From NCBI RefSeq assembly GCF_009905375.1, contig NC_133650.1, positions 298,901,957 to 298,965,956 on the forward strand: 64,000 nucleotides of DNA, given 5' to 3'. Positions 13,283 through 42,822 of this stretch are shown here, piece after piece. The stretch comes from Apium graveolens (Eukaryota > Streptophyta > Magnoliopsida > Apiales > Apiaceae). The notes below the pieces were generated by a model that ran no database searches, had not been told where the DNA came from, and saw only the letters and a list, made by a program, of their open reading frames with translations. The stretch's first letter is position 1; each line of letters starts with the position of its first letter. A program made the position numbers and the translations under genes.

Positions 13283-13547
13283 TTCCCAAATGGTTTGGGC
13301 TTTTTAGGCCTTCAATTTCCTAATCCTAATTGGATTGGGCCTTTGGGCCTTCAGTTTCCCAAATGGTTTGGGCTTTTTAGGCCTTCAGTTTCCTAATCAT
13401 AACTGGATTGGGCCTTTGGGCCTTCAATTTCCTAAATGGTTTGGGCTTTTTAGGCCTTCAGTTTCCTAATCCTAATAGGATTGGGGCTTTGGGCCTTCAA
13501 TTTCCTAATCCTAATTGGATTGGGCCTTTGGGCCTTTAATTTCCTGA
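13283..13547. repeat. Tandem repeat, unit 73 bp made of two related halves (TatH)
   Basis: The segment CCCAAATGGTTTGGGC recurs at about 13285, 13358 and 13431. It alternates with the related half-unit TAATTGGATTGGGCCTTTGG, each ending GGCCTTCA. It directly abuts the 81-bp array, and GGGCC-type small palindromes recur throughout. Confidence 0.85.
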
Positions 13548-17001: not shown

Positions 17002-20000
17002 CTATTTCCTTGATTGTCTGGATTTCTTCCCAAGCCTTCTGTTATTTTTTTCAATTTGATTCTGAAGTTGTCTGTGGAATTCAAGTTCATCAGCTTCTGA
17101 GAGATTTAGCATTTCCTGCATTTCCAAAAGAGTCTCATTGCTAGAGATACTCAATTGGTCCTCCAATCTGAAGAATCTTCTAACACCTTTGTCATCCATG
17201 AATTCCATCAGCCAATAGGGCCTTAGATGCACTTTTTTTCCTGTAAAGGGAATATATAGAGTTTTTGGAAGTGCATCTTTGGCTCTAGTACTCCTTAGTT
17301 CCTCAATCCTCTTTAGAACTATTTTTCTTCCAGTCTCATTGTATCCAAAATTCTTTTTGAAGGATGAGTAGACTTTAATCAGAATAGATTGGCTTTCTTC
17401 GAGAATCCTGTGAAGAGGCCATGTCATCTCTTTCCCTCCCTTGTATCTAAATACCAGTCTTTCAGGAAGATGTTTGTAAGCATCAATTCCTCTTACTTCT
17501 TCCAGTTCATCCAAGTAGAGATTCAAGTCTGAAAATTCCTTGATATCACAAATGTACGTGAGATCCCTCTTGTTGACTATGAGTTGGGATTTGGTTAGAG
17601 CTTTGGATCTTAGAGATACAGGCTTCACTTTCTTGCTAGCTCTTGTCTTTGTCTTCTTTGTCTTGAAGATGGGTAAATTAAGCTCAGGAATTGGTAAACT
17701 ATCCCAGTCTACTGGCTCATCCTTAGGAACAATTGGTTCACCATGAATATTTCTTGTTGGATCAACCACTTTGAATTCTTCATATACCACTGAGAGTTTT
17801 GATGTCTGAGTTATAGTTGTAGGCTTTTTGGGAAATTGTTCTTCCAATTCCTCATCATTAAAGTTCATTTTCCTCTTGGAATGGAGTTTGTATCTAAATC
17901 TTCTTTTCTGCTGTGATTCTTCTTGCATTTTCAGATCCTTAGGTTCAGTAATTACAGTTGGTTGTACAGGAAGTTCTGTTATGGTTTTTACAGCTTGAAG
18001 TTTGGCCAAGATAACAGCTTTTTCCTTCTTTTACTTTTGCTTCTTAGCATCCAAAGCAGCTTGCTTCTTTTCTAGCCTGATTCTTTCTTTCTCTTCCTTC
18101 TTAGCTTTCACAAACAGTGGGTGTCCAACCACCACACAAATTTCCTTACCATTTCTGTAAATTTTAGCAATTCTCCTTTTAAGCACTGAATCAGTTGGAT
18201 CTTTGTAGAATGCAATAGACCTACCCAACAGCTTCTTCTCATCTGGACTAGGTGTTTCAAACACTGTATCCATAAGATTCTTGTCTGAAAACTTAGAGTA
18301 GTTCCTTTTGGCCTTCATGATGAGATCTTTCTTTGGAGATTTGATGCAGGAAGTTTGACCTCTTTCCAGATAGTTCATACTTATGTCATTCAAAGAAAAT
18401 TTCATGACTTTAGAGTGATGATTGTAGACTCTGTCTGGCTTCTGAATTGGCCCAAACTTTTGTTGGATATCTGCATCTATCTTTCTCCATTTTTCTTTTA
18501 TTTCCTTCTCTAAAGATGTAATATCAAGCATCTTGGGATTTGATGTCAACTCAAGCTTTTCAGCTACTCTTTGGATTAGATCAATGTTATCCAACACTGG
18601 TGGCTTTGTGAAAGCAATTGTTGGCACAATCACTTTGCTGACTTGTATGTTTAGCACTTTTTGCTCCCCCTTACTTCTTGATTCCCCTTGACTGAATAAG
18701 ACAATTGAGCTTGCTTTCTCCCCCTAAGAAGAGGTTTCTTTCTCCCCCTTTTTGTTATCATCAAGTTGAGTAGAAGAAGTAGTTTGTGCTGCCACTAGCC
18801 TTTGAAGCAAGTCTGTTTGTTGTGCCTGATGTAGATGTATAGCTGTTCGAGAGGCTTTCATTATTGTCATTCTTTTCTCCGAGGAGTCCACCTTGGTTGC
18901 AAGATCAGTGTTCTTCCTTAATTATCTTTTAACATCAAACATTGTAGCTTCTGGAAGTTTTGCATCTAATATTTCAGCTATATCCTTCTTCACTTGAGTG
19001 ATCTCTGTTTTGATAGAAGTGATATCCTGATTATGTTGGAAGCCTTGGATTTGATACAGATGTAGATAATTAAGATGTGCTTGTAGAAGCTGCTTGGTGC
19101 CTGCATCTATTGTAGATTGAATGGCATTATGTATTTCCTGGATTTGATGAATGAGAGTGACCTTAAAATGTTGAAGATCACAATCCTTGGAGAATGCCCA
19201 TGAAGGAAGGCCAGATCTAGAACTGGTGCCTACTTCTCCCCCGATGTTCATGATTTCCTCACTTGCACTATCATCTCCAAAGAAATCAGCAGATGCACCT
19301 GTTCCATAGTCAATATCATCATCACCATTAGGTGGCATAACTGTAATAGCATCCTTAACTCTTTGCATTGACTGAGTGGTGTGCACCAAGTTCAGCATCC
19401 TTTCTGCATTCTCATTGTCTTGGCCAGCCAAAATTTGATATGCCGGAACAGGATGAGTAAATGCCTCAACATCCAAAGAGAATGAACTTATAATAGCTTG
19501 ATTGTGCTGAGATAGTTTCTCTAAGTCTGCATCATTGGCATTCATTGACTCACTTGCAATGGATTTCACCCTTATTTCTCTTGTACCTGCATTTCTCTCA
19601 TTTTCTCTCTCTCTTTTTGCATCAAGGGCTCCCCTTGTCTCCCCACCCTCACACCCTCACCTTCACCATCTAAGGCGGGACTCCTTTCACTCACTTTTGC
19701 CAGTCCTGAAGAAATGGACTGCATTGGTTCACTCTTTTTCTCTCCTTTTTCCTGGGAGTAACCCAGACTCTCACTCAATTCACTCCATTCCCTCAGTCCT
19801 AGGAGTGATTGTACTACTACTAAGTCTTCTGAACTTGTTAGAATTGAAGAGATTTGAAGCTGTGCAGAGACACCCGATGGATGAGGAATATCCATCAGGT
19901 TAGCAGTTTGACTATCCGACGGATGAGCTTATCCGTCAGGATACAATCACTACTCGACGGATGATAAATATCCATCGGGATAGAAGAAATAATTGAGTTT

Positions 20001-24298: not shown

Positions 24299-26316
24299 TG
24301 TGATATCCCATATTTTTCAGAATTATTATTATTATTATTATTTGAATATGTTTAGGTGATTTTCTGATTAGGAAGGAATAATATTATGGATATTTTATTC
24401 TTGTTTGACGAGTTGGTGTTATTAAATGGTAATGTGCTAATTGTTAAGTGTTATATCGATCCTTGTTAATTTCTAAAAATATTTACTTAAATATATCATT
24501 TTCAAAAGTTTATTTGAAAACCGATCATTTTATTGATATCAGTAAATTGGGTTCGTTTAGTAATATTAGGGATTGGATGGATATGCGGTCTGCTATGTGT
24601 TGTATGTAATATTAATTGTGTGGGACTCAGTGTTGATTGAGGATTATTTGTATTATTAATTACTGAGTCGTATCGTTTTGTTTTTGTCTTTAAAAGTGAT
24701 TTTATTGAAAATTTAATTTCATAAATATTTATATTATCTTTAAAATTATTTTATGACTTTATAATTACAATAATTATTTTTGGGATTTTATATAATTTAG
24801 AAATCAATATTTCATCAATTTTTTAGCCCTGTATGATTTTCTGATTTCATTTATTTGTAAAATCCGTATATAATTTCAAAATTCTTCAAAAATTACGAAA
24901 CTCATATTTATTTAAGTTTGGAATATTCTGAGAATTTTAAAATTATTTTGGGAATTTTTGGGATTAATTTTACCCGCGCATTGAATCGTTTAATTGTTAA
25001 AAGCGGGTATAAATTGTATTTTAAAAAATTATTTTGAAATTACGAAATTTATGTTTTTATAAAATTCGGGATATTTGTAACATTTTAAGACTATTTTCGT
25101 GATATTCTCAATTTGTTTCAAGTGCAGCTATGTTCGTTAATTGTAAAATGCGGGTATAGCGCACGAGTCAAAAATGTTTTAAAAATTATGAAAATTTTAC
25201 TTTATTAGATTTTAATAATTCCGAGAATTTTAGCATTTATTTGGTAATTTTTCAAATTTTATTTATCCGCGCATTTATTCATTTAAATGCAAATTACGGG
25301 ACAGAACCGGGTCACGGGCCATAGGAAGCTCATACTAATCTTTAATAATACATGTTCAATTTGTATTGAATTTTAAACATGTGGGAGAGGCTTAGTACCT
25401 GTGTGTGCTACGTGTTGATTCTGCAGAGTTGTAACATTTATTAATATAAAAAAAAAAGAAAAAAAATAACCCAACCCCCTCCCCTGTTATCTCTCGTCTC
25501 TCTCCTCACTCTCTATCTCTCTACGATTTTCTCTCTCTCACTTGCGCCACTCCCCCAACCTGCTTTCTCCCCCTGATTTCACCCGCCTCCCCTTTTCTGT
25601 CTCCCTATCCTATTTTCTTCCTGTTTATTTATTTACTTTTAATTTTCAAAAATTCATATCTTACAAACCGTACATCCAAATTTCAATTGTTATATATATA
25701 AACGATCAGTGCTTCGATACCTACACATAGGTATATATATTGCAAGGTTTTGAGAAGAAAATTTGCGAAGCATATTTTCAATTTTAATTTATTTTCGGGG
25801 CATAGAAAAGGAGTTTGAAGGCGTTGATTACTCCACATGGCATCTTAGCGTGTATATGTCGGGTGAAAAACCAAAATAACCATTTTTAAATAATAATCGC
25901 CCAAAATACCCACCAGAATTTTAAGCTGTCCAAAATACCCACCATATACTCCATTTTCAGTGGAGTATCCGGTGGATACTCCAGTGACATGGGAGTATCA
26001 GGATGATACTCCTTTGTCAGTGGAGTATTGTTAGGAATGTATGTGCATTAGTTTGATGATATGTTTAACAAAATACTTAAGTAGAAATTTAGTGTCTGTA
26101 GCCTCAACGGATAAGACCACTTTGGCTATCCGTTGATGGTGTAGCTTTACTTAGAAATAAGTCTAGTGTTGTAGCATATTTCAGTCTCTGTATTTAAAAT
26201 GTAATTCTTGGAAGTTGAGAGAAACTATGAGTCATGTTGACTACTAGATGATATGCAGATAGGAAGGCCAATTGTAAATACTTCATGCCTTGTAATTTTG
26301 TATAAGTGAAGTGGTA

Positions 26317-26504
26317 TCAACGGATGACTTAAAGACCTTCAACGGATGAGAAGCTAAGCTTCAACGGATGTCTCTAAAGCTTCAACGGATAAAGTCATCA
26401 ACGGATAACATCCTTCAACGGATGAGTGCATCAACGGATGAAAGCTTCAACGGATAACATCCTTCAACGGATGAGTGCATCAACGGATGAAAGCTTCAAC
26501 GGAT
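26317..26504 (+). repeat. Array of eleven TCAACGGAT words in the CopC LTR
   Basis: Eleven exact copies lie in 188 bp, all in forward orientation. A segment holding three words (CCTTCAACGG..., CATCAACGG..., GCTTCAACGG...) is duplicated in tandem. A degenerate reverse form (GCCGTTGATAAG) follows at 26518. The 3' LTR has the same array with one word mutated; CopA has nine. Confidence 0.92.
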
Positions 26505-26742
26505 GTTCTGATGATTAGCCGTTGATAAGGGGTAGTTGTACCTACAGACAGAGGCACATGGGTTGATAGAGACAACTGAGATGTGGTAGCCGAATTTCAG
26601 GAACAACAGAAAAAGCAGCCGTTCTTCTCTAGTACAAAGATGCAATAGTCAACAAAGTACTGGAGTGAACAGGAAAAGAAGCAAGTGAAGATATTATTTT
26701 ATTACTGTATTTTATATTGTTCTTCACTAGTACACTTGGTAA

Positions 26743-26750
26743 TATATAAA
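26743..26750 (+). promoter_or_regulatory. TATA box of the CopC 5' LTR inside an inverted repeat
   Basis: TATATAAA is enclosed by ACTTGGT (26734-26740) and ACCAAGT (26750-26756). It lies about 360 bp before the LTR end and downstream of the word array. This is the likely promoter for genomic RNA. The matching copy in the 3' LTR is 38887-38894. Confidence 0.65.
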
Positions 26751-27109
26751 CCAAGTAGAAGCTAGTAATTAGATGAGAGATTTTCCAGAGCTGTTTAGAA
26801 AAATATTGAGAGAAAATCCATCTAGTTTGTACTAGGATGCAGCTGTGATCAACATTGTTTAATCACAGATTTTCTAAAATACCATCTCTGGTGGAACAAC
26901 AAATCCACCAGAAAAGTTTTTAAGGTCTGTTGTGTTCTTTACATTTGTGCTTGAATATATATCTGTCTGTATTAGCTTAAAGCAATTCACACACTTGTTC
27001 TTCTTGAACACACAACTTTCATAAACTGCTCAAAACTTGAAAAAGTTTTGAGATTTACATTCAACCCCCCTTCTGTAAATCTCATTGTTAGTCCACTAGG
27101 AATAACAAT

Positions 27110-27121
27110 TGGTATCAGAGC
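27110..27121 (+). other. Primer binding site of CopC
   Basis: TGGTATCAGAGC lies two bases after the LTR, complementary to initiator tRNA-Met. Confidence 0.95.
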
Positions 27122-27168
27122 AGGCTCTTGACATACAAAGAGTTTAAAGATCTTGGAATCTAACAAAG

Positions 27169-29583
27169 ATGAGTAAGAAGGATATTGGAGTAAAGATCCC
27201 AGTTCTTGACAAAGATAGTTATCACCATTGGAAGGTGAAAATGCACCTTCATCTACTCTCCCAAGATGAAGGTTATGTAAACTGCATTGAGAATGGTCCT
27301 CACATTCCCCACAAAGTAGCAACAGTTGCTACAGCCACAGTTGCTGTTGGTCAATCCATTCCAAAACCTAGAGCAGAATGGACAATGGAAGACACAGAAG
27401 AAGTCCACAAGGATAAGAAGGCTATGAACATTTTGTTTAATGGTCTTAACATGGATATGTTTGATAATGTGATAAATTGCACAACTGCCAAAGAGGTTTG
27501 GGACACAGTTCAACTACTGTGTGAAGGTACAGAACAAGTGAAAGAAAACAAAATGCAGCTTCTCATTCAACAGTATGAATACTTTCATTTTGAAGAAAAT
27601 GAATCTTTAAATGAAACATTCAATAGGTTCCAAAAGCTGTTGAATGGACTGAAGCTGTATGGAAGAGTGTACCAGGTGAAGGATTCAAATCTTAAATTTT
27701 TAAGATCCTTGCCAAAGGAATGGAAACCCATGACTGTCTCCTTAAGAAACTCTCAAGATTATAAGGACTTCACTCTTGAAAGATTGTATGGAATCTTGAA
27801 GACTTATGAACTAGAGCTGGAACAGGATGAGGTATTGGAGAAGGGGAGAAAGAAAGGAAGTTCAGTTGCATTGGTAGCTGAAGATGAGAGGAAATGCAGA
27901 CAAGAAACTGCGAGATCTACATCAAACTCCAAAGATGGTATAAGAAATCAGGAATCAAGCAAGGGGAAAGAGCAAGTTGCTGAAAATGAAGACAACTCCA
28001 GCCAAGATGACTCAGATGGTATTGATGAGCATCTTGCATTTCTGTCCAGAAGATTTGCAAAGATGAAATTCAAGAAAAACACTAGAGCCACTAAACCTCA
28101 CAAAAACACTGTGGACAAATCCAAGTTCAAGTGTTTCAATTGTGGTATAAGTGGACACTTTGCAGGTGAGTGCAGAAAGCCAACTTCTGAAAAGAAGAAA
28201 TTTGAACAAGTAGATTATAAAAAGAAATATTTTGATCTACTCAAGCAAAAGGAGAGGGCTTTCATTACTCAAGAAAGGGACTGGGCAGCTAATGGAGATG
28301 AAGAGGATGAAGATGTGGAGTATGTCAACCTTGCTCTCATGGCTGATTCTGAAGAAAATGAAGTTAGTTCATCAAGCAATCAGGTAATCACTACTGACTT
28401 AACACAGCTTACTAAAGAAGAGTGCAATGATGCTTTTAATGACATGTCTACCGAATTGTATCATTTGCGTGTGTCTCTTAAATCTCTTGCTAAAGAAAAT
28501 AGTAGGATTAGAGAGAACAATCTGTTTTTAAGTAATAGAAATGCTTTGTTAGAAGATAAGATGATTGACCTAGAGAAAACAAAGTTGCATTGTATATCTG
28601 TTGAAAATGAACTAGCTGAATCTGTTAAGAAAGTAGAAATACTTTCCAATCAATTAGAGAAAGAGCAAGAGGTGATTAAAGCCTGGAAGACATCTAGGGA
28701 TGTAAGTGCTCAAATTGCTAAGGTCCAAGGAATTGAATCATTCTGTGAAACTGCCTGGGATAAAAATAAAAAGAAACTGGAATTAATTGATGGGCTGTCA
28801 ACGGATGTGGAATCAACGGATGATGAAAGTTATCCGTTGAAGGAAGAAAAGGAGCATCCGTTGAAGGTTCCTCAATCAAAACAGGCAGATGTTTCTAAAA
28901 GAGAGAATCTAAAGAAACTCAACAAAAAGTTTGGTTCAACTTCAAAGAACTTTGTCAAAGAAGAAGCAAGCACATCCAAAGATGTCAGTAAGGTGAATGT
29001 AGGGCACATGACCTTAGAACAGTTAAATAATAGGCTCAAGATGGTTGAGGATAAAAAGGAATCTAAAAGAAAATCCAACAGAAATGGGAAGGTAGGAGTT
29101 AATAAACACAACAATTACACACCTGATAGGTATGCTCCTAGAAAAAGCTGTGTGCATTGTAGTAGTGTTAATCATCTATCTGCTAGTTGTAAATCCATTA
29201 AGAAGACTCCCATAAATGTACCCTCTTCTATGCCTAATATGTCTGCATCACCTCTGCATGCTATGCCTGTTATGTCTCAACAAAATCCTTATGCACATTT
29301 TGTAAACATGCCATATTTTAACAATCCTTATCTTGCTGCATTTAGTATGCCTCAAATGCCATACAATATGCCCATATGGAATAACATGTTTGCACAATCA
29401 ATGCCTAATAATTTTACAAATGTGCTAAATGATTCTGTGACTAACCCTACACCTCAACCAACTACATCTAAGACCAAGGTTGACTCAAACTTACCTAAGT
29501 CTAAAGATGCAGGAGGAATGAAGTCTAGGAGAAAGGCTAACAAGAATGGACCCAAGGAAACTTGGGTACCAAAATCAAATTGA
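27169..29583 (+). CDS. gag: CopC Gag (804 aa)
   Basis: It forms the nucleocapsid-like particle that packages element RNA. The ATG is 48 bp after the primer site and matches the CopD and CopF starts (MNKKDVGVKIP in CopD). Residues about 10-225 are a UBN2-type copia capsid domain. A CCHC zinc knuckle is intact at 322-335 (CFNCGISGHFAGEC). A long coiled-coil-like segment spans about 425-505. Residues 544-566 are encoded by four copies of the element's repeated word (STD, STD, YPL, HPL). A second CCHC motif lies at 661-674 (CVHCSSVNHLSASC), then a Met/Pro/Asn-rich stretch and a basic end (GPKETWVPKSN). There is no internal stop. The frame ends 5 bp before pol opens in the +1 phase. It is longer than usual copia Gags, as is typical of SIRE-like elements. 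Confidence 0.93.
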   Translation: MSKKDIGVKIPVLDKDSYHHWKVKMHLHLLSQDEGYVNCIENGPHIPHKVATVATATVAVGQSIPKPRAEWTMEDTEEVHKDKKAMNILFNGLNMDMFDNVINCTTAKEVWDTVQLLCEGTEQVKENKMQLLIQQYEYFHFEENESLNETFNRFQKLLNGLKLYGRVYQVKDSNLKFLRSLPKEWKPMTVSLRNSQDYKDFTLERLYGILKTYELELEQDEVLEKGRKKGSSVALVAEDERKCRQETARSTSNSKDGIRNQESSKGKEQVAENEDNSSQDDSDGIDEHLAFLSRRFAKMKFKKNTRATKPHKNTVDKSKFKCFNCGISGHFAGECRKPTSEKKKFEQVDYKKKYFDLLKQKERAFITQERDWAANGDEEDEDVEYVNLALMADSEENEVSSSSNQVITTDLTQLTKEECNDAFNDMSTELYHLRVSLKSLAKENSRIRENNLFLSNRNALLEDKMIDLEKTKLHCISVENELAESVKKVEILSNQLEKEQEVIKAWKTSRDVSAQIAKVQGIESFCETAWDKNKKKLELIDGLSTDVESTDDESYPLKEEKEHPLKVPQSKQADVSKRENLKKLNKKFGSTSKNFVKEEASTSKDVSKVNVGHMTLEQLNNRLKMVEDKKESKRKSNRNGKVGVNKHNNYTPDRYAPRKSCVHCSSVNHLSASCKSIKKTPINVPSSMPNMSASPLHAMPVMSQQNPYAHFVNMPYFNNPYLAAFSMPQMPYNMPIWNNMFAQSMPNNFTNVLNDSVTNPTPQPTTSKTKVDSNLPKSKDAGGMKSRRKANKNGPKETWVPKSN

Positions 29584-29587
29584 TTGA

Positions 29588-32500
29588 TTTTATGGTGTGC
29601 AGGGAAATGGAAGAAATCTATGGTACTTGGACAGTGGTTGTTCAAGACACATGACAGGAGATTTCTCCCTGCTCACAGAGTTCAAGGAGAGAGCTGGCCC
29701 TAGCATAACCTTTGGAGATGACAGCAAAGGGTTTACTATGGGATATGGCTTGATTTCAACAAGGAATGTCATCATTAATGAAGTTGCATTAGTTGATGGT
29801 CTCAAGCACAATTTACTGAGCATCAGTCAACTATGTGATAGAGGGAATACAGTTTCCTTCAATTCTGAAGCCTGTGTTGTCACTAGTAAGAAAGACAACA
29901 AAGTGGTTCTAACTGGAGTTAGAAAAGGAAATGTGTACATAGCTGACTTCAACTCTACAGATGCAGAATCCATTACTTGTCTCTTCAGCAAAGCAAGCAC
30001 AGTTGAAAGTTGGCTATGGCACAAGAAGCTATCTCACTTGAATTTCAAGACAATGAATGATCTAGTCAAAAAGGACTTAGTTAGAGGAATCCCTCTAGTT
30101 GAATTCTCAAGGGATGGTTTGTGTGATGCTTGTCAGAAAGGCAAACAAAGGAAAGCATCATTCAAAAAGAAGCTTGAAACAACAATTGATGAACCATTAC
30201 AGCTGCTACATATGGATTTGTTTGGACCAGTCAATGTATTGTCTATTACAAGAAAAAGATATTGCTTAGTGATTGTAGATGATTTCTCAAAGTTCTCATG
30301 GGTCTATTTTCTTGGATCAAAGGATGAAGCAAGTGAAATCATTATCAATCACATCAGGCAAGTCAACAATCATCCTGACTTGAAGGTTAGAAATATCAGG
30401 AGTGACAATGGAACTGAATTCAAGAATTTGACATTAAGGCTGTTTTGTGAAGAAAATGGAATCATGCATGAGTTCTCAGCTCCAAGAACACCTCAGCAAA
30501 ATGGGGTTGTTGAAAGAAAGAACAGATCTTTAATTGAAGCTGCCAGAACAATGCTTGAAGAATCAAAGTTACCAACATATTTCTGGGCTGAAGCTGTTAA
30601 TTGTGCCTGCTTCACTCAGAATATTTCTTTGATCAATCAAGCTAAAGGCATGACTCCTTATCAGTTGTTCAAGAGAAGAAAACCAACTCTAAACTTTCTT
30701 CATGTCTTTGGATGTAAATGCTTTATACTGAGGAATCAATCTGACCATAAAGGGAAGTTTGATGCAAAGGCTGATGAAGGGATATTTGTTGGTTACTCAG
30801 CTGGAAAATCTTATAGGGTCTACAATCTAAGAACCAACATTGTTATGGAATCTGTGCATGTTGTGTTTGATGATAAAAAGATTGATGGACTAACAGATGA
30901 GGGACATAATGAGAGACTCAAATTTGACAACATTGAGATATATTGTGATGATAGTGAAGAGGAGACTGATGGAGATGACACTTCAAAAGGGATTCAAAAC
31001 ATGCCCTTGGATAATGCACAAAATACTGCATCCGTTGATAGAGGCAATGCAGTATCCGTTGAAAGACATAGTGCATCATCCGTTGAAGTACAAAATGAAG
31101 CATCCGTTGATCATATTTCATCAACGGATAATCGATTTACATCATCAGTTGATAGAACTCCAAGTTCCCTGCAAAGGACCAACAACTCAGGGGGAGTTTC
31201 AACTAGTCAACACTCTGTCTCACATCATGACAATACTGAGGCCACCTCATCTAGAGCACATCTTCCACCACAAAGGAAATGGACCAAAAATCATCCCTTT
31301 GAACTGATCATTGGTGATGCATCATCTAAAGTGCAAACAAGAAAAGCCACTCAAGATGAATGTCTGTATAGTAGTTTTCTGTCTCAGGAGGAACCTAAGA
31401 AAGTGGAAGAAGCTCTATTGGATCCAGATTGGATATTAGCTATGCAGGAAGAGCTGAACCAATTTGAGAGAAACCAAGTATGGAAGCTGGTACCCAAACC
31501 AAAGAACAAGAGTCCTATTGACACAAAGTGGGTATTCAGAAACAAGATGGATGAAAATGGCATTATCATAAGGAATAAAGCCAGACTGGTTGCTAAAGGC
31601 TATTCTCAGCAAGAGGGAATAGATTTTGATGAAACATATGCTCCTGTTGCAAGACTTGAAGCCATCAGAATATTTCTAGCCCATGCAGCCCATGCCAATT
31701 TCAAAGTCTATCAAATGGATGTCAAGAGTGCATTTCTAAATGGGAAATTAGAGGAAGAAGTCTATGTAAGTCAACCTCCAGGATTTGAAGATCCAATTTT
31801 TCCAGACTATGTGTATTATCTGTTGAAAGCACTCTATGGACTGAAGCAAGCACCTAGAGCCTGGTATGAAACCTTATCAAAATTTCTTTTGGAGAATCAC
31901 TTCACTAGAGGTACTGTTGATAAAACTCTCTTTTTTAGGGATGTTAATGGCTCTAGTATACTTGTTCAAATTTATGTAGATGACATAATATTTGGCTCTA
32001 TAGATGATAAACTTTGCAAAAAGTTTGCTAAGCTAATGCAAAGTAATTATGAAATGAGCCTAATGGGAGAACTAACCTATTTTCTTGGTTTACAAGTTAA
32101 ACAAGTTAGTGATGGAATTTTCATTAGTCAAACTAAATATATTTATGATCTTTTAAAGAAGTTTGACTTAATGGAATGTTCATCTGCAAAAACTCCCATG
32201 GCCACTGCCACCAAACTTGAATTAAATAAGACTGAAAGGTCTGTGGATATTACAAGTTATAGAGGCATGGTTGGTTCACTTTTATATTTAACTGCTAGCA
32301 GACCAGATATAATGTTTGCTACATGTCTATGTGCTAGATTCCAAGCTGATCCTAGGGAGTCTCACTTAATTGCTATCAAAAGGATTTTCAGATATCTCAA
32401 GGGTACACCAAATTTAGGTATTTGGTATCCTAGAGAATCTGGCTTTGATCTAATTGGTTATTCAGATGCAGACTATGCAGGTTGCAAAATAGATAGGAAA

Positions 32501-32917
32501 AGTACAACAGGCTCCTGCCAATTCCTGGGAAACAAGCTTGTATCATGGTTTAGCAAAAAGCAAAATTCAGTCTCTACTTCTACAGCTGAGGCTGAATACA
32601 TTGCTGCTGGAAGTTGCTGTTCTCAAGTGTTATGGATGAGGAACCAACTCCTTGACTATGGACTTCATGTTGATAGAATTCCTATCTTTTGTGACAACAT
32701 AAGTGCCATAGCCATAACAGAGAATCCTGTGCAGCACTCAAGGACCAAGCACATTGATATCAAGTACCACTTCATTAGGGAGCATGTCATGAATGGTACA
32801 GTGGAACTACATTTTGTTCCAAGTGAACAACAAATTGCTGACATATTTACCAAGCCACTTGATGAATCAACATTCACAAGATTGGTAAGTGAGCTAGGTA
32901 TGCTTAATTACTCTTAA
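29588..32917 (+). CDS. pol: CopC Pol polyprotein (about 1109 aa): protease, integrase, RT, RNase H
   Basis: It carries out Gag-Pol cleavage, reverse transcription and integration. The frame opens at 29588 with no nearby ATG; residue numbers here count from GTG at 29597. Protease DSG is at residues 12-14 ([13 protein letters not shown]). The zinc-binding GAG-pre-integrase region is [11 protein letters not shown] with CDACQKGK. The integrase DDE triad is D207, D270 and E306, with 35 residues between the last two. The acidic linker (about 425-570) contains five copies of the repeated word. Reverse transcriptase has YVDD at 793-796, and RNase H includes SDADYAG (D957) and ends NYS. No stop or frameshift is visible. 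Pol is +1 relative to gag, so expression needs frameshifting, splicing or reinitiation. The sequence GTGTGCAGG at the junction is a possible splice acceptor. Confidence 0.93.
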
Positions 32918-33478
32918 AATTCATGTCTTTATTGCAATTTGAATTGAAGCCTGAAATATATTAGTTGCTAAGAACAAATTTGACTTTTAACATAGTTTAT
33001 TCCATCAACGGATGTTCCCTATCCGTTGAAAGTCAAAATTGCTCTATCAACGGATAATCATTATCCGTTGAAAGACAAATACATTTCTGGAATTTTTATC
33101 CGTCAACGGATAAAACTGAAGTACCTTTCAACGGATGACAATTTGCCTTATCCGTTGAAATGTCACATCAATCTTTTCAGGTGTTTAACAGCCGTTGATT
33201 CTATTCTCTTAACCGTTGATACTCATACATATATCTGTATGTATTGGTTTTAAAGGTAGTTTTTAGAATACTTACAGTTTATTCTTAAAACGGCTGAAAT
33301 TCACTAACGCATATTTATTGATAAATCTTTATTTTATATTTTTGTTTATTAATTTGAGAAAGCATATAAGTCCTTCTGATTGTTCATTTTTACTTTACGC
33401 TTTCTTAAAATTTCAAGCATTTACCATTTTCTCTCTGCAAAAACTTCAAGTTATTCTCTGCAATTTCTACTCACAACA
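32918..33478 (+). repeat. CopC pol-ORF3 spacer with hairpin-forming words
   Basis: There is no coding potential. Four forward words (33005, 33047, 33103, 33128) and three reverse words (33021, 33063, 33150) lie in 154 bp. The pair at 33005-33029 has a 7-base loop. The segment 33047-33071 is a perfect 12+1+12 palindrome. 33094-33115 is a 10+2+10 palindrome. The stretch 33260-33478 is AT-rich, with a pyrimidine-rich leader before the ORF3 ATG; an internal promoter or splice acceptor for ORF3 could lie here but is not demonstrated. Confidence 0.85.
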
Positions 33479-36400
33479 ATGGCACCAGTCGTGAAGATTA
33501 TGTCTCAATCTGGGTTCATCTATGAAAAGAACAATTTCATAGCTTTGGTAGAAAAGAATGAAGCCCACTCAGACTATCACAAAATGATGGACTTCATCAA
33601 AAACTGTAAACTTAGCTATGCAATGCTGGAAGCCCCAACAATTTTCTGTGAAGTAGTTGAGGAGATTTGGACAACTGCTGAGTTCAACTCCATGGATATG
33701 ACTATCTCCTTCACTCTCAAAGGTAAAACTCACTGTATTAACTGTGATGATTTACAAGCATGTTTTAAATTGCCTGAGAACAATGCCATGACACCACACA
33801 CTGATAGTGATGTATCCAGCATGTTAGATTCCATAGGTTATTCTCTTAACTCTGCTAATTTAGGGAGTATTAGAAGAAAAGGCCTTAGGAAAGAATGGAG
33901 TTTCCTTGGGGATGCTTTTATAAAGGTTTTCTCTGGGAAAATTAGTAATTTTGATGCCATAACTTCATCTCTGGTTAATATGCTCTATATGCTTGTTTCT
34001 GATAGGTATTTTAACTTTAGCAACTATGTGATGCTAGAATTAGGTACTAGATTAGGTAACAAAGCTAATAGACCTAATAACATCTATTATGCTAGATTCT
34101 TTATGTTATTGGCTAACCATGTTGCTGAAGGTTTAGTCATAATCAATGAGAATAATAAACTCAAGTGCTGGGCACAAGAGAAAAGAGTTCTTGCAGACTT
34201 GATGAGAATGGATCTTAACAGCAGTGTGTCATTGGTATATTTACCAATCATGAATGCACCTCAGGTAGGTGAGGTAATTGCTTCTACAACTCCTACTTCT
34301 TCCAACCCCTCTATTTCTTTATCTTCTAGTGTGGCCATGAAATCTGTGATGCCCCAACAGATTTCTACCAAGGTCACCAAAACTAAACTTTCAAAATCAA
34401 AGACAAAGAAATCCACCTCTGTTGTTTCTCAAAAGACAACAGTTGTAACACCAACTATTAACCCTGAGGTGAGTGAACAGGGTGTGAGTGGTGAGGGGAG
34501 GGGTGAACATCAAAGAAACCCCCAGGATAAGGAAGGAAAGTTGAGTGCTTCCCAAGCTAGCCAAGCCACAGTTTCTCAAAAAGCTGTGGTGGTTGAAAAG
34601 GTATCTAGCACATCCCTAGTAGCATCCTCCCAAAAGGATGTTACTATTGAAAATAGTTCCAAACCAGGAACACAGAACAAACGAGGGAGGGACACTAAAG
34701 CCAAACACTCACCAACAAAAGCCTTTATTAGAAGAAAGAAGGCTAGAACCCAATCTTCTACACAGGGTGCACACACTGCACAGATACATCCATCTGTATC
34801 TATGCCTTCTCAAACTCAGTTTGATGTGACTCCAATAAATGTGGAGTCACAGCCCCATTCTCTCACAATAATCACACATCAATCACCAAACACTTCATCA
34901 CCATCTCTGGATGTGGATATGTTATTCCCATCAATTCCTGATTCTCCCTCTTTACAACTCAGGGAGAAGCCCCACTCAAATACAGGTGATCATCATCTCT
35001 TGGATGATTTGTTGGATCACCCGCAAATTCTTTCAGATATAATTGAAGGATCTGTGTCACCACATCTCAAATCAATCTACACAGATTCAACAGTTATATC
35101 ACTTTCAATTTCAACTTCTTTTCCTTCTTCAACGGATATCACTCATCCGTTGACAAGTGGTTGTTCTTCAACGGATAAGCTTAACAGCAGTTATCCGTTG
35201 ATAACATCAGTTTCACCTTCAACGGATATTCCACATCCGTTGACAGTCTCTACACAAATAACTGAATTAATCCCAAGTGTAGAAGACATGAATACTGTGC
35301 AATCACTCTTAGGATTGAGGGAAGGGAGTGACAATTTGAGTGAGAGGCTGGGTTGCTCCCAGGCAAAAGGAGAGATTGAGAGCTCAAAAATGCATGCTAT
35401 TTCTTCCAGCATGGCAAAAGTAAGTGAGTGGAGTACCACCTTAGTAGGTGAAGGTGAGGGAGTGAGTTGTGTGAGCCAGGGGGAGCCCCTGATGCAAGAA
35501 CATAGAGAAAAAGAGAGAAAAGCAGGTACAGTAGATACAAGGGTGGAACCAGCCATTGCTAATGAGTCAATGATTGTGGATGATGCTGAAAAGGAAAGAC
35601 AATTTCAGCAACATTACAAAGCTGTAATTGATAACATTTCCTTGGATGCTGACACTTTTACTCATCCTGTGACAGCCTATCAACTGTTGGCTGCTCAGGG
35701 CAATGAGAAAGCAGAAAGGTCACTACATCTAGTGCACACAACAGAATCTCTTCAAAGGGATAAAGCTGCCATTAACAAAATGCCTTCTACAGCTGGTGAG
35801 CCATCTGAGGAATTTGGAGCAAATTCTGATGATGATGACTCTATTTCTTTTGATGGAAGCATGAACTTAGGGGGAGATGAAGGCCCTAGTTCAATTCCAA
35901 ATCTACCTGAATGGGCCTTGACTAAGGAGTACAGATCAGGGGAATTCAATGTCTCTTTAGTCAAACAAATCAACACTATTCAACAGGCCATTCAGAATAC
36001 TTCACATGCAAGTATCAAGGCTATCCTTCAAGCTCACATGGACTCACTGCATCTCATGAAGCTGCAGCAAGTGAAGCAGAATCTGAGTATGGATGATCTC
36101 AGGAAGGATATTGCTGACTTGAAAACCTATACTTCAGAAAAATTGGATTCAGTCATGCCCTATGGTACATTGCAGGACTTGGTTTTGAGATTGAAGAAAG
36201 AATCTGTTACTGAAAAACGGTTGGCCAAGTTAGAAGACAGAGTTCAAGTTATTGAAAATTCTGTGGCCACCATTCTTCACAATCAACAATCTCAAACCAG
36301 TCTCCTAATGCAGCTGGCAAAAGCACAAGGCTTGACCCCTCTCCTTGATGATAACAAAAAGGGGGAGAGTAAAAGGGAAGGGGAAGGAGAGCCATCTACA

Positions 36401-37984
36401 AAAGTCAACATATCTAAAGTGCTAGTTCCTGCCATCACTACTTCTCCAATCATTCAAATCAAGGGCAAGCCTGATGGAATTGATTTGATTCAGCTAGCAG
36501 CAGCTGAAATTCAAGTGAAAGAGCAAAGGAGGAGAATTGATGAAAGGTTGCAACTGTTGTTTGGTTCTACACAAGACAAATCAACATCTGTGAAATACAG
36601 CATAAAAATTGAACCAATCAACATGGAGCTCATGCCAGTAGGGAGTCATAAGGATGGAGAAGCTTCTTCCAAAGAACTACAAGCTATAATTCTCAAGCCC
36701 AATGAAAGATCCAATAAGGACTCAACAAAGAATCCTTTAAAAGAAGTGGACTTTCCTCCTCCAAAAGCTGATGAGAACAAGATTTTAGGCAGAAGTATTG
36801 CTTATCTCAAAAAGACCATGGTTGAGACTGTAAGGAGAAATAGAGCTATTATCATTAGAGAGGGAAAGAGCATATGTGTGATGCAAGGACATCCCAAATT
36901 CTCAATAGCCAAGAAGGAAGAAGACAAGCAATTAAAGGCTGACAAAAGAGCACAAGCAAAGCTTGAACAACAGCTAAAGTCAAGTCTAGTTGAAAAAGAA
37001 AAAGGGATTGAAGTCAGGGGTGAAGACAAGACTACAAACCTAGATGAGGTTTTAGGGAGTATATTTGGTGAGAGTGTGGAAGAAAGAGAGGAATGGCAGA
37101 AGGGAAACAGAAGAAAGGCCAAGGCACATAGAAGGAGTGGAGATAACACTGAAGTAACCAAATCTATATCTAAACCACTACCTTCCATACCTGAACCCCT
37201 TGTTGCTGATCCCACAATAAACATCCATGGTAAACCAATCATTCCAAAAGAGGAACCTATTGATTGGGACACTATCAAATTGCCTACCTTTCTAACCACT
37301 CTTCCACTACCAAAGAAACAGAAAAGAAAACCAAAATCTACACCTCTAATAACCTCTAAGAAATTCACTCAAAAACAAAAACCTAAGCCTAAGTCACCCA
37401 TTTCTAAAGATGATTATGTTCACATCTGTGACATAAAAGAAATTTCAGACATTGAACTCTATCTGGATGAGCTGGAGGATGTAAGGGGAATAGCTGCCTA
37501 TAGACAGTTACCAGAGAGATTAGTGTTCAGATATAAAGGAGCTGGGGAAAGAACATGGCCTCTCCACAGGATTCTGGATGAAGGCTACACTACCTTGATT
37601 AGAGTCTATTCAGCTATACAAAAGGATTCTGGCTTTACCAGAACTGCCAAGACTGAAATTCTCAACAAGATAGCCAATATAAGGAAAACTTGGAGGGAGC
37701 CCAATGCTTTACCCAGGACTTTACTCATTCAAGAAAGGGAAATGAAAATTCTCAAATCACCTCATTGGTTGATGGAATTTAGAGATGATAAAGGAGTCAG
37801 AAGATTTTTCAGACTTGAAGACCAACTCAAGATTGCCAGCAATGAAACTCTCAAAGAAATGCAATCTAAGTTGGATGTCAGTGTTGAAGATGAAGCTGAA
37901 TTCTTCAGACAACTCCAACTCCAAATTGAGGAAAATGACAAAAGGCTAGGAAAGAAAACCAGGGAACAAAGAAGAAAAAGATGA
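33479..37984 (+). CDS. CopC third ORF (1501 aa), env-like by position, function unknown
   Basis: The ATG at 33479 gives MAPVVKIMSQSGFIYEKNNF, conserved in CopD and CopF; the frame is open 33 codons further upstream but that part is not conserved. Residues about 1-240 form a conserved globular block (YHKMMDFIKNCKLSYAMLEA, RYFNFSNYVMLELG, YYARFFMLLANHV) recalling plant transposon-protein domains. Then comes a Ser/Thr/Lys-rich low-complexity linker. Three inverted word pairs lie at about 551-589, followed by an acidic segment, a coiled-coil-like region (about 850-990) and charged Lys/Glu repeats. A conserved C-terminal block (about 1311-1490, with LYLDELEDVRGIAAYRQLPE and LMEFRDDKGVRRFFRLED) ends in a basic tail. 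No signal peptide, transmembrane segment or furin-like site is visible, so an envelope role is not supported by what I see. It is fully open over 4.5 kb, which argues for selection or very recent insertion. Confidence 0.85.
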   Translation: MAPVVKIMSQSGFIYEKNNFIALVEKNEAHSDYHKMMDFIKNCKLSYAMLEAPTIFCEVVEEIWTTAEFNSMDMTISFTLKGKTHCINCDDLQACFKLPENNAMTPHTDSDVSSMLDSIGYSLNSANLGSIRRKGLRKEWSFLGDAFIKVFSGKISNFDAITSSLVNMLYMLVSDRYFNFSNYVMLELGTRLGNKANRPNNIYYARFFMLLANHVAEGLVIINENNKLKCWAQEKRVLADLMRMDLNSSVSLVYLPIMNAPQVGEVIASTTPTSSNPSISLSSSVAMKSVMPQQISTKVTKTKLSKSKTKKSTSVVSQKTTVVTPTINPEVSEQGVSGEGRGEHQRNPQDKEGKLSASQASQATVSQKAVVVEKVSSTSLVASSQKDVTIENSSKPGTQNKRGRDTKAKHSPTKAFIRRKKARTQSSTQGAHTAQIHPSVSMPSQTQFDVTPINVESQPHSLTIITHQSPNTSSPSLDVDMLFPSIPDSPSLQLREKPHSNTGDHHLLDDLLDHPQILSDIIEGSVSPHLKSIYTDSTVISLSISTSFPSSTDITHPLTSGCSSTDKLNSSYPLITSVSPSTDIPHPLTVSTQITELIPSVEDMNTVQSLLGLREGSDNLSERLGCSQAKGEIESSKMHAISSSMAKVSEWSTTLVGEGEGVSCVSQGEPLMQEHREKERKAGTVDTRVEPAIANESMIVDDAEKERQFQQHYKAVIDNISLDADTFTHPVTAYQLLAAQGNEKAERSLHLVHTTESLQRDKAAINKMPSTAGEPSEEFGANSDDDDSISFDGSMNLGGDEGPSSIPNLPEWALTKEYRSGEFNVSLVKQINTIQQAIQNTSHASIKAILQAHMDSLHLMKLQQVKQNLSMDDLRKDIADLKTYTSEKLDSVMPYGTLQDLVLRLKKESVTEKRLAKLEDRVQVIENSVATILHNQQSQTSLLMQLAKAQGLTPLLDDNKKGESKREGEGEPSTKVNISKVLVPAITTSPIIQIKGKPDGIDLIQLAAAEIQVKEQRRRIDERLQLLFGSTQDKSTSVKYSIKIEPINMELMPVGSHKDGEASSKELQAIILKPNERSNKDSTKNPLKEVDFPPPKADENKILGRSIAYLKKTMVETVRRNRAIIIREGKSICVMQGHPKFSIAKKEEDKQLKADKRAQAKLEQQLKSSLVEKEKGIEVRGEDKTTNLDEVLGSIFGESVEEREEWQKGNRRKAKAHRRSGDNTEVTKSISKPLPSIPEPLVADPTINIHGKPIIPKEEPIDWDTIKLPTFLTTLPLPKKQKRKPKSTPLITSKKFTQKQKPKPKSPISKDDYVHICDIKEISDIELYLDELEDVRGIAAYRQLPERLVFRYKGAGERTWPLHRILDEGYTTLIRVYSAIQKDSGFTRTAKTEILNKIANIRKTWREPNALPRTLLIQEREMKILKSPHWLMEFRDDKGVRRFFRLEDQLKIASNETLKEMQSKLDVSVEDEAEFFRQLQLQIEENDKRLGKKTREQRRKR

Positions 37985-38158
37985 TTTGCTCAGACTAAAG
38001 GAGTGTCCTTGGAAACACTGTAAATCTTCAATTATCTCCTAGTACATACACTTTTGCAGCATTTTTAAATTTCTACTTAGTTTCAATTCATATATCTGTT
38101 AAGTGTTTTGTTATCATCAAGTTAACCCTGAATTTATGCCTACAATTCTTATAGACAT

Positions 38159-38172
38159 AAATAGGGGGAGAT
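38159..38172 (+). other. Polypurine tract of CopC
   Basis: AAATAGGGGGAGAT lies immediately before the 3' LTR. Confidence 0.92.
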
Positions 38173-39251
38173 TGTTAGGAATGTATGTGCATTAGTTTGA
38201 TGATATGTTTAACAAAATACTTAAGTAGAAATTTAGTGTCTGTAGCCTCAACGGATAAGACCACTTTGGCTATCCGTTGATGGTGTAGCTTTACTTAGAA
38301 ATAAGTCTAGTGTTGTAGCATATTTCAGTCTCTGTATTTAAAATGTAATTCTTGGAAGTTGAGAGAAACTATGAGTCATGTTGACTACTAGATGATATGC
38401 AGATAGGAAGGCCAATTGTAAATACTTCATGCCTTGTAATTTTGTATAAGTGAAGTGGTATCAACGGATGACTTAAAGACCTTTAACGGATGAGAAGCTA
38501 AGCTTCAACGGATGTCTCTAAAGCTTCAACGGATAAAGTCATCAACGGATAACATCCTTCAACGGATGAGTGCATCAACGGATGAAAGCTTCAACGGATA
38601 ACATCCTTCAACGGATGAGTGCATCAACGGATGAAAGCTTCAACGGATGTTCTGATGATTAGCCGTTGATAAGGGGTAGTTGTACCTACAGACAGAGGCA
38701 CATGGGTTGATAGAGACAACTGAGATGTGGTAGCCGAATTTCAGGAACAACAGAAAAAGCAGCCGTTCTTCTCTAGTACAAAGATGCAATAGTCAACAAA
38801 GTACTGGAGTGAACAGGAAAAGAAGCAAGTGAAGATGTTATTTTATTACTGTATTTTATATTGTTCTTCACTTGTACACTTGGTAATATATAAACCAAGT
38901 AGAAGCTAGTAATTAGATGAGAGATTTTCCAGAGCTGTTTAGAAAAATATTGAGAGAAAATCCATCTAGTTTGTACTAGGATGCAGCTGTGATCAACATT
39001 GTTTAATCACAGATTTTCTAAAATACCATCTCTGGTGGAACAACAAATCCACCAGAAAAGTTTTTAAGGTCTGTTGTGTTCTTTACATTTGTGCTTGAAT
39101 ATATATCTGTCTGTATTAGCTTAAAGCAATTCACACACTTGTTCTTCTTGAACACACAACTTTCATAAACTGCTCAAAACTTGAAAAAATTTTGAGATTT
39201 ACATTCAACCCCCCTTCTGTAAATCTCATTGTTAGTCCACTAGGAATAACA
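38173..39251 (+). repeat. 3' LTR of CopC (1079 bp)
   Basis: Near-identical to the 5' LTR and followed by the AGTAT duplication (39252-39256). The word array lies at about 38461-38648, with one word altered to TTAACGGAT. The TATA box copy is at 38887. Confidence 0.95.
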
Positions 39252-40408
39252 AGTATCCACCCATATACTCCTTTGTCAGTGGAGTATCATCTAAAATTTT
39301 AAAATTTTAATTTTATTTTTTAAAAATATTTTATTAAAAAAATTAAAAGTGATACTCCACTGGGAAAGGAGTATCAAGACTGATACTCCACTGGTAAAGG
39401 AGTATCCGGACTGATACTCCACTGACAGAGGAGTATCTGCCATGATACTCTACTGACAAAGGAGTATCATCCTGATACTCCATTGAAATTGGCGTATTAT
39501 CCTGATACTCCAGTATCGGTGGAGTATCTAGTGGGTATTTTGGGCACCTTTTTCCAGAATGGGTATTTTGGGCAAAAGGACATCTAAAAAGAGGTATTTT
39601 GGTCATTTTTTCGTATATGTCTATGACCATTAATTTCGGATTTTTCTGAAGATATTTTCCGGACATCAGATTTTCTCTTCGGGTTGATCAGAATTTATTT
39701 TGGGTAACGATTTCAAAATCCCTCCTTTGTACTTGTGTATATTATAGCATGTTAGTGTTGATATATTTATTTCATAATTTTTAGAAGTTTTTGTAGAAGT
39801 CATTTTTGACCGAGTTATTCATTTCTGGAGTGTTTATACGCTTAAATATAAATTATTGTGTTGATTGTTGTTGGTTGTGTCGATATGATATCGACTGGCA
39901 GTCCGAGAAATAGAGGAGGTGTTGTCTGATTTCCAAGAAAATATTATTTTTAGTTCTGAAGATTATTATTTTTATTATTATTCGAAAATAAATCCAAATT
40001 ATTTAATTAATGAATTTTAATTGATTATTTAATTCGAGTTAATTATTTCTTATGATTTAAAAATTCCGAAGAATAGTTTCGAACTTTAAAATATTATTTT
40101 AAATTATTTTCAAGGCTCGATAAATATTATTAAATAACTTATTCTTATTTTATTCGTATTAAATAAACTGTTCATCCGTTTATTACGGAACGCGTACAGA
40201 CTCAGAAAAATATTCCGCTTTCATTAAAAATACTTTCGAGACCAAAATCCTTTTGTTTCGAAAGGTCGCTTGTTTTACGAATCATTCTATGTCGATTTTT
40301 TGATCGATAAATTATATTTTTGACCCGATTTCTGTTTTAAACATACCGAGTCAAACCTTTTGACGAACCGAGACATGTGTGATATGAATTATGTGATATG
40401 CGAGTTAT

Positions 40409-41104
40409 GTGTTTAAGTGTTATGTGAATTACGTGCATACATGAGTCAAATGTTTTGTGCTTGACTGCTTCCTTATGTGCGGGTTATCGTATGGGTAGAC
40501 GATAGGATTTTGACGCGTAGTTCGTCGAGTAATTCTCGTTTAGACGATTAAAGTTATATCTTTTAATTATAGATGCGGATCGTTCGAGTGAGCAGGACAA
40601 GACGTTGGATAAAGAATGAGATAGAATGGTATTGGGTATCTGGCTTCTAACAATCGTAGGAGCAGCATATCAGTGAAGTGTTGAAAAGAAAGACAGAGAT
40701 GTTTTGAGACAAAATGACAGAATTGATGCGTCTTTGCGCGTCAAAATGACAAAATGACAGAATTGATGCGTCTTTGTGTTTAAGTGTTATGTGAATTACG
40801 TGCATACATGAGTCAAATGTTTTGTGCTTGACTGTTTCCTTATGTGCGGGTTATCGTATGGGTAGACGATAGGATTTTGACGCGTAGTTCGTCGAGTAAT
40901 TCTCGTTTAGACGATTAAAGTTATATCTTTTAATTATAGATGCGGATCGTTCGAGTGAGCAGGACAAGACGTTGGATAAAGAATGAGATAGAATGGTATT
41001 GGGTATTTGGCTTCTAACAATCGTAGGAGCAGCATATCAGTGAAGTGTTGAAAAGAAAGACAGAGATGTTTTGAGACAAAATGACAGAATTGATGCGTCT
41101 TTGC
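40409..41104 (+). repeat. 367-bp tandem duplication inside the TekJ 3' LTR
   Basis: GTTTAAGTGTTATGTG starts at 40411 and again at 40778, and the following 320 bp are almost identical (for example GGGTAGACGATAGGATTTTG in both). A short AAAATGACA repeat lies at the joint. It looks recent, as very few differences are seen. Confidence 0.88.
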
Positions 41105-42822
41105 GAGTGTGACTAACTACTAAATCCCAAAGGCAAGTACCCCTGACTTCACTTATCGTTCAAGTGACATTTATTTTGAATCATATTATGCAAGTATCCC
41201 TATCATCACTTATCGTTCAAGTGATATTTATTTTAAATCTTCTTATGCAAGTATTGCTTTCCCTATTCTCAGTTCGGAATAAATAAATGTTTTACATATC
41301 GCAGAATTAAATGATTCTATTTATGCAAGTATTCTTCTGTTATTATATGTTCAGAATAGCTAAGTGATTTTACTTATCAAATTACTGGATTTATAAATGT
41401 TTTGGATTTTGAGAAAGATGATTTTGTTGCGAGTATTCCTGCCCAAGTGAATGGGGGAATAAATTTATTTAGGATGTCGAATGATTCGGCTCCTTTATTT
41501 AAGATTGGAATGGTTACTGGTTACTGGTTACAACGTAGGTGATCGAGATATCGGTCCAGCTGTAATATCTTTAAGGCTAGTTATGCCTTTTCTGGCGCCC
41601 TATAGGTACCGTATGTCTTCGGAAAACGGGTAGTACCTATATTTACGGTATGGCTGCGGGATACCGGTGTTGTTTCGCGACTGATCATCGGGAACAACAT
41701 GAAATGTTGTTGGTTCCAATCTAAATTGATATTTAAATTTCTTTATTATTTTGATAATCATATAATAAATGATTTATCAACTGATTCTGTTTTGGATTAA
41801 AAGTACTGATTCTGTTTTGGATTAAAAGTGAATTGCGGTTTTAATTCAGATTCTGATTTATGCTGATACTTACGTTGTTGTTAAATATCAAAGGTGGTAT
41901 TAGTATAGATGATTGATGTTGACTTCAGTATGGGTGTTGTGAGCATCAAAGTTCGTATTGATATCTAATTTGATACGACAACAAAGTAACTATTAATTTG
42001 AAGAGTTCGGTTTTGAGTAAAGTTTATGATTCAATCTATAATCATTGCTTCTTGTTGTTATGGTTTACGATATTTCCGTAAACACTGTTTTATGAGTTTT
42101 ATTCTCGTTAAGATTCAAAGTATTGCTGAAGCATTTTGCTCAAAAATATCAAAATGGTTTTGAATACAATTAAGGAATCAATTATGGGGTTCCTCAACTA
42201 AAATTTTATGGTTCAACAATTATGATTTTAAATATTTTGCGCTATTGTAGATGTCAGTTTTATATTAAAATGACCCGATATTTACTATAATGAACTTGAT
42301 GAGCATTTCTTCCGCTCACGCCTCTCCTTGATTAAAGAGTGGTGGGGCCAGAAGCCGGAAGCCAAACGTACGCCTGTTTTAAATTTAACCTCCAGTGAGG
42401 ATTAGCTTGCACTGTTTAGCTGCGTAATTCAAGGAAGCAAAGAAGAAGCTTTTGGAAAGTGGTTGGTCCAGGATTGCGAATTAGTGTAAGTTCTTTTATG
42501 TAAAGTTGTTTATATTATATTATATTATAATTGTATTATTTTATAGTTGGGCCTAGTATGCTTCATTTCGAAGTTATACTAGTGGGTTTAGTTTGGAGTT
42601 GGAATTTATCGAAAAGAATTTTAAAAGAAAGTGAAAAATTTATTGATGGAATTTGGAATTCTTGTTTCTAGAACTGTAACCTTAAAAGATCTTGGATTAG
42701 TTTGGGGTCATTTATGATAAATATCTTCTGTTGGCATTTAATTATTGATTAAACAGGTTGATTTGGATTGAGGTTTCATAGTGACGACCAAATCTTCTGA
42801 CCTCGAATTTGGGGGCGTTACA

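Follow-up and report, generated by a model that had tools for sequence, protein, structure and literature searches.

Sirevirus retrotransposons (Ty1/copia) carry a repeated motif (RM), which the sections of the 2010 report drawn on here describe as a palindromic, mostly element-specific sequence whose role is unproven (Bousios et al. 2010, PMC2829016). The same sections locate its many copies in the upper half of the long terminal repeat (LTR), before TATA, with further copies preceding the ENV-like gene; in two elements a few also stand where ENV begins. An RM is taken as at least 8 copies, starting 200–400 bp into the LTR and upstream of TATA, and 12 of the 13 published RMs contain a CGG/CCG core. 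A palindromic cis-region with a repeated inverted motif and predicted secondary structure is attributed to maize Sireviruses (Bousios et al. 2016, via PMC10760457), and the excerpts of PMC10760457 link small RNAs with these palindromes. VANC proteins, in the parts of PMC5735166 and PMC10398659 used here, have a short target motif that differs between related transposon families. Here we analyse a 64,000-nucleotide window of Apium graveolens (contig NC_133650.1, positions 298,901,957–298,965,956) and, within it, the copia-type element CopC, whose nine-base word TCAACGGAT recurs in both LTRs, in gag, in pol, in the spacer between pol and a third open reading frame (ORF), and in that frame, ORF3.

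CopC resembles a published RM in copy number, in LTR placement upstream of TATA and in extra copies before the ENV-like gene (33005–33158). Its unit differs in being a non-palindromic 9-mer containing CGG, with dyads arising solely from inverted pairs; the word also stands in gag, in the linker between integrase and reverse transcriptase (RT) and in mid-ORF3, whereas RMs lie in the LTR and linker; and its copies are direct in the U3 part of the LTR and mostly inverted inside. To this we add a concerted word difference between sister families. The best reading of the CopC word is a Sirevirus repeated motif extended into gag, pol and ORF3. The VANC motifs of VANDAL (Hosaka et al. 2017, PMC5735166), as far as the consulted portion describes them, are likewise nine bases long, repeated along the element, different between families and switched as a set, and CopC too has a short motif, specific to its family, in repeated copies over its length; however, VANDAL is a DNA transposon with non-coding motifs and a proven reader, whereas CopC is a retrotransposon with 15 of 22 internal words inside ORFs and a putative reader. 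In VANC-type anti-silencing, a protein encoded by the element itself recognises the motif and strips methylation. The maize palindromes, in the excerpts of PMC10760457, lie in the LTR, whereas the CopC LTR array is unstructured (fold z +0.13) and its stems are internal. The portions consulted of two further papers (PMC12844716, PMC9073684) have no direct bearing on the CopC word.

Counts, slots and orientation of the word

The window holds 58 exact copies of TCAACGGAT, against a mean of 0.19 and a maximum of 2 in 100 dinucleotide shuffles. CopC accounts for 47: 13 in the 5' LTR, 22 internal and 12 in the 3' LTR. Within the ORFs, 1,000 codon-synonymous shuffles of each give means of 0.06 (gag), 0.10 (pol) and 0.08 (ORF3) and a maximum of 2, where 4, 5 and 6 words are observed; this rules out chance or codon bias as their origin and bears out the claim of an earlier note on this DNA, made from the letters alone, that the word is far more frequent than chance would allow.

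All CopC slots lie on the + strand. The 5' LTR words, 12 forward and one reverse, occupy the U3 part (26104–26504), with the direct-repeat array at 26317–26504 (spacing mostly 16–22 bp) upstream of a TATA-like box at 26743; this main array runs from ~290 to 480 bp into the LTR, and two words stand earlier, at 76–108 bp. The gag slot (28798–28864) has four words, ordered ++--, in two reading frames and with nested stems possible. The pol slot (31030–31129), between the integrase-side domains and the RT domain, has four reverse words at 24-bp spacing and then one forward word (----+). Seven words, mostly inverted pairs (+-+-++-), fill the pol–ORF3 spacer slot (33005–33158), and six, forming three inverted pairs (+-+-+-), the ORF3 slot (35129–35243). 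The U3 part of the 3' LTR (38248–38648) repeats the array with 11 forward words and one reverse, plus one word with a single substitution. These counts agree throughout with the earlier note, as do its coordinates except for 31044, which should read 31054; the alternating orientation that it ascribed to all internal copies holds for ORF3, mostly for the spacer and partly for gag, but not for pol. The LTR of a second C-type copy (1759–2126, +) contains 11 TCAACGGAT. Across the 3.33-Gb genome, a 25-base double word from the LTR occurs 13,300 times and its reversed control not once.

A literature search with six spellings of the word gave no related entry among the matches listed, judging by titles. 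We found no print report of word copies in gag or pol in searches that covered literature listings and the papers cited here. Where the coding copies are concerned, the earlier note was right to say that it knew no described function; the copies in the LTR and before ORF3, however, are placed like the published repeated motif, as given in the cited sections of PMC2829016.

Conservation of the exact bases and of their CpGs

Twenty further C copies, chosen by the double word in the LTR and not selected on internal words, were examined from the 5' LTR to ORF3 (ORF3 to position 35880); because of that choice their LTR word counts are biased. Words are present in LTR, pol and ORF3 in 20/20 copies and in gag and spacer in 19/20 each, the two absences (gag in L018, spacer in L019) arising because the matches of these copies skip those regions. 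No exact word lies outside the five slots in any of the 20. The possibility raised earlier that other intact copies might lack the internal words is thereby answered: they carry them.

Nine of the 20 form a subfamily ~84% identical to CopC, with a mean pairwise identity of 0.952 over gag–pol; being one lineage, they are not independent. In this 84% subfamily, identity to CopC is 0.98–1.00 within words against 0.77–0.84 outside. The contrast extends to codon position 3, which is conserved at 0.98 (gag), 1.00 (pol) and 0.975 (ORF3) in words and at 0.68, 0.77 and 0.80 elsewhere in the same ORFs. Internal words are intact in 176/195 cases, compared with 14–38% for other 9-mers, depending on region, and 10/22 word sites are intact in all copies read, against 209/2007 neighbouring 9-mers. 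Unpaired words, namely those of U3 and three in pol, are conserved as well. In the eight closer copies (~95%) the contrast is smaller, and absent at pol position 3 (0.929 in words, 0.932 elsewhere). The coding words span several frame and strand settings and encode the peptides STD, YPL/HPL and SVD/SVE. A repeated peptide is ruled out as the explanation by these different frames, and since frames and peptides differ, the constraint acts on nucleotides.

The words also stand out by their CpGs. Over the internal region of CopC (27109–38166) the observed/expected CpG ratio is 0.09, falling to 0.04 outside words, and 22 of the 36 internal CpGs lie within words; outside words, the 20 C copies range from 0.03 to 0.09. 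Six 10-kb pieces of contig C4 give 0.48–0.80 and a piece with an E-type copy (see below) 0.29, while the ratio is 0.13 for the interior of element E and 0.30 for gag and pol of element N. TG and CA are raised in CopC (1.35 and 1.29), the pattern expected from methylation-driven CpG loss, and the use of AGA or AGG for 154 of 159 arginine codons suggests CpG avoidance as well. Whether by loss or by avoidance, the CpGs of the words are retained where other CpGs have disappeared. The element that shows this scarcity is young, and its gag, pol and ORF3 frames are open. Where internal-word CpGs do change, TG exceeds CA by 13 to 2, compared with 25 to 26 at other internal CpGs; forward words of the LTR show no such lean (C to T 3, G to A 4).

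Word difference between related families and the setting of CopC

Element E, 76% identical to CopC over 27039–32969, carries the word YCGACGGAT. At 15 aligned coding words, E has this form at 6, a one-base variant at 7, a more distant form at 1 and a lost word at 1. The difference from C to E is A to G: G stands at word position 3 in 12/15, and positions 4, 7, 8 and 9 are unchanged in 14–15 of 15. With background rates between C and E of 0.107 (A to G) and 0.103 (T to C), 12 such changes in 15 have a probability of 2.5e-11 at a background of 0.08, or ~1e-9 by hand at the measured 0.107. Judged from the frames, the change does not alter the amino acid in pol or in any forward word; in the reverse words of gag and ORF3 it would replace Leu by Ser. 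The spacer and LTR of E are also filled by YCGACGGAT, though the sequence around them largely hardly aligns. Families C and E thus differ jointly in their gag, pol, spacer, ORF3 and LTR words. CpG decay of E-type into C-type words is ruled out, since the word's second CpG is retained.

The E words lie on the + strand at 43690–44014 (5' LTR array), 49764–49839 (gag slot, TCGACGGAT and ATCCGTCGA with variants between), 52009–52065 (pol slot, two CCGACGGAT and one CCAACGGAT, all reverse), 53992–54195 (spacer slot, three YCGACGGAT and one ACGACGGAT), 56066–56180 (ORF3 slot, reverse arms intact and forward arms one-base variants) and 59253–59577 (3' LTR array). Alignment to element M indicates that the 5' LTR of E is apparently split by a ~3.4-kb insertion (44414–47863). 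Element M, on the - strand, has three CCGACGGAT and one CCAACGGAT in its LTR (16379–16717) and an ORF3 slot at 19869–19980.

Element N, whose pol is 60% identical, carries a word unrelated to TCAACGGAT. Its words, of the GACAATC / GGTATGAC type, lie on the - strand as largely inverted pairs in the pre-ORF3 spacer, so assigned by position after pol (3540–3960), and as direct repeats in a single orientation on the LTR side (10330–10530), an assignment made from position before gag with no LTR pair shown. No cluster occurs in gag or pol of N among its most repeated 8- and 9-mers.

Four further elements were picked by RT spelling from 12 chosen among 100 of 43,118 RT matches; those listed all lie on contig C1, and two elements resembling the E spelling were put first. 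With pol-linker and spacer pieces assigned solely by distance to the RT motif, two have E-type linker words (5 including one variant, and 3), one has C-type words (5), and the fourth, N-type, has a linker with neither C- or E-type words nor a repeated 8-mer. In the three that bear words, linker and spacer types agree, barring a few one-base variants. In distant copia elements in L032 and L033 (pol ~31–43% identical, one fragment excepted), the most repeated 8-mers of gag and pol include neither C- nor E-type words. A dense array of CGGATACG and TATCCGGA at L031:5654–6340 is possibly another repeated motif.

CopC itself has LTRs that are 99.5% identical and three frames on the + strand: gag (27148–29583; Retrotran_gag_2, zinc knuckle), pol (29588–32917; gag_pre-integrs, rve, SH3_retrovirus, RVT_2) and ORF3 (33380–37984; 1534 codons stop to stop, with no Pfam match). 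Its gag, integrase and RT domains are copia-type and not Sirevirus-specific. By eye, a poly-C integrase signal, CAACCCCCCTTC, lies near the LTR end, a feature named for Sireviruses in the consulted part of PMC2829016. Sireviruses have multiple polypurine tracts ahead of the 3' LTR, and the terminal one in CopC is AGGGGGAG. Together with this tract and the large ORF after pol, here ORF3, which is a trait of many though not all Sireviruses, the poly-C signal fits assignment of CopC to the Sireviruses on sequence features. Scoring of the best 7984 candidates by shared words gave 28 ORF3-like proteins, from Apium, Heracleum and two ENA entries; homologues with a named source are all from Apiaceae, and one has a sub-threshold match to PF20167 (putative plant transposon protein). 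CopC is flanked by arrays of a ~30-bp unit (25946–26028 and 39350–39512), and the left and right flanks match in inverted orientation. Elsewhere in the window, tandem arrays occupy 12925–13545 (units of 82 and 73 bp) and 40408–41105 (a 367-bp unit, ~2 repeats, 99% match).

Readings of the word

We hold with high confidence that the word is functional, as the earlier note had proposed; third codon positions conserved within words in the 84% subfamily and the set-wise difference between C and E both support this. The reading that we favour, at about even confidence, is that the CopC word would be a concertedly evolving, family-specific recognition site for a DNA-binding reader. A sequence-specific factor would recognise it in duplex DNA, both in U3, ahead of the promoter, and at intervals of ~2.0–2.5 kb along most of the element body, which would let the element activate, or keep unsilenced, its own kind. 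Candidate readers are a protein of the element itself (gag, integrase or ORF3) and, alternatively, a factor of the host that the family has become adapted to, and a change of word would accompany a change of reader, as in VANC/VANDAL. Conservation of the exact nine bases far above their surroundings, at the level of nucleotides, supports such a site. So do the joint difference of the words between C and E, the agreement of linker and spacer types in three further elements, the conservation of words that stand outside local hairpins and the CpGs retained in words. A narrower form is tentative, and on balance we doubt it: a protein of the element might read, over the element's full length and within its protein genes too, a DNA code that is private to the family and switches rapidly, and so lift silencing from this family alone. 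By analogy, a retrotransposon would then have its own version of VANC anti-silencing, an equally tentative parallel, with its genome stripped of nearly all other CpG.

Several observations weigh against a DNA recognition site or against particular readers. The internal inverted pairs have strong predicted stems, G-U and double changes largely preserve the ORF3 pairing in E and M, and a site acting purely as DNA would have no need of the lean towards G-U-compatible substitutions. The switch between C and E words is not absolute: L035, a second E-type copy with the E pattern and a deleted gag slot, has one TCAACGGAT in its spacer, and at one ORF3 site the E-type base occurs in C copies (TCGACGGAT in 2/20, TCGATGGAT in 1/20). 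Sireviruses without ENV keep LTR motifs, according to the cited sections of PMC2829016, and therefore ORF3 is not the sole reader in all of them. Pfam recognised no DNA-binding domain in ORF3, and AlphaFold2 on two pieces of it gave poor models for both, so a DNA-binding role for ORF3 gains no support from either.

The stems are the substance of a different explanation, possible though clearly less probable to us than a DNA site, in which the genomic RNA would fold into stem-loops at the internal words and use them for packaging, dimerization or folding; alternatively, these words would pair with those of a second genomic RNA or with the U3 array, located at the RNA 3' end. Family-specific words would then restrict pairing to kin RNAs. 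U3 words are direct repeats, most internal words stand in inverted pairs for which strong stems are predicted, pol excepted, and the fold z-scores of CopC follow suit (gag −6.8, spacer −8.75, ORF3 −7.9, pol −3.3, against +0.13 for the U3 array), with −5.4, −4.4, −5.3 and −2.6 in the slots of E; the spacer words of N also fold into stems. In ORF3 (23 rows, 16 distinct), 99.1% of cells are paired and 6/27 pairs have changed on both sides, a level reached in 0/500 shuffles, although the number of further pair types is not above shuffles (268/500). All these double changes come from E and M, and concerted word change yields most of them; one in M, at word position 5, is not so explained. The TG excess at internal word CpGs noted above is consistent with G-U pairing in RNA, as is a small lean in the substitutions (A3, 13 cells compatible and 4 broken; A4, 8 and 6), in counts that include related copies. 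However, stems need neither sequence identity nor CpG retention, and the U3 words and three pol words, which stand outside local hairpins, are equally conserved in the 84% subfamily. In E the forward pol word is gone, and so is its hairpin, yet the reverse pol words persist. No double changes were found in the spacer stems, bases that could lengthen those stems vary, and the non-word arm of a spacer palindrome changes in the 84% subfamily (ATCCT, ATCCC, ATTCT) while the adjoining word is kept. In our reading the word is the selected unit, with RNA pairing a possible added factor internally.

Ordinary host transcription-factor sites without self-recognition (a U3 enhancer, a spacer promoter for ORF3 and enhancers within coding sequence) are unlikely. 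The array upstream of a TATA-like box, placed as in the published repeated motif, accords with such sites, and the AACGG of the word resembles what we take to be a plant MYB-type core; but word sets differ between related families, the E words lack that presumed core, the N word is unrelated, and sites in gag and pol would serve no clear need. Neutral spread, in which short tandem or template-switch copies gave rise to the word and common descent preserved it, is very improbable: the LTR arrays do look like tandem expansions, but conservation of the words far exceeds that of flanks and third codon positions, exact words are confined to fixed slots in 20 copies, and the one-position difference is concerted. 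Equally remote is a host silencing target, with words or hairpins drawing small RNAs or methylation. A small-RNA excess over palindromic clusters of maize Sireviruses is reported in the consulted part of PMC10760457, but conserving such a target brings no benefit to an element, and it would be a side effect at most. Among the roles listed in the earlier note, binding sites and RNA structure stand, whereas template switching alone leaves the conservation unexplained.

The role of the Sirevirus repeated motifs was left open in the 2010 paper, as its cited sections present it (PMC2829016). Exact-base conservation within protein genes, combined with a one-position difference across all slots, provides a testable signature of sequence-specific recognition, and the A-type and G-type word families are a matched pair suited to a specificity-swap test. 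In these elements, the loss of CpG picks out the functional sites, much as a footprint would.

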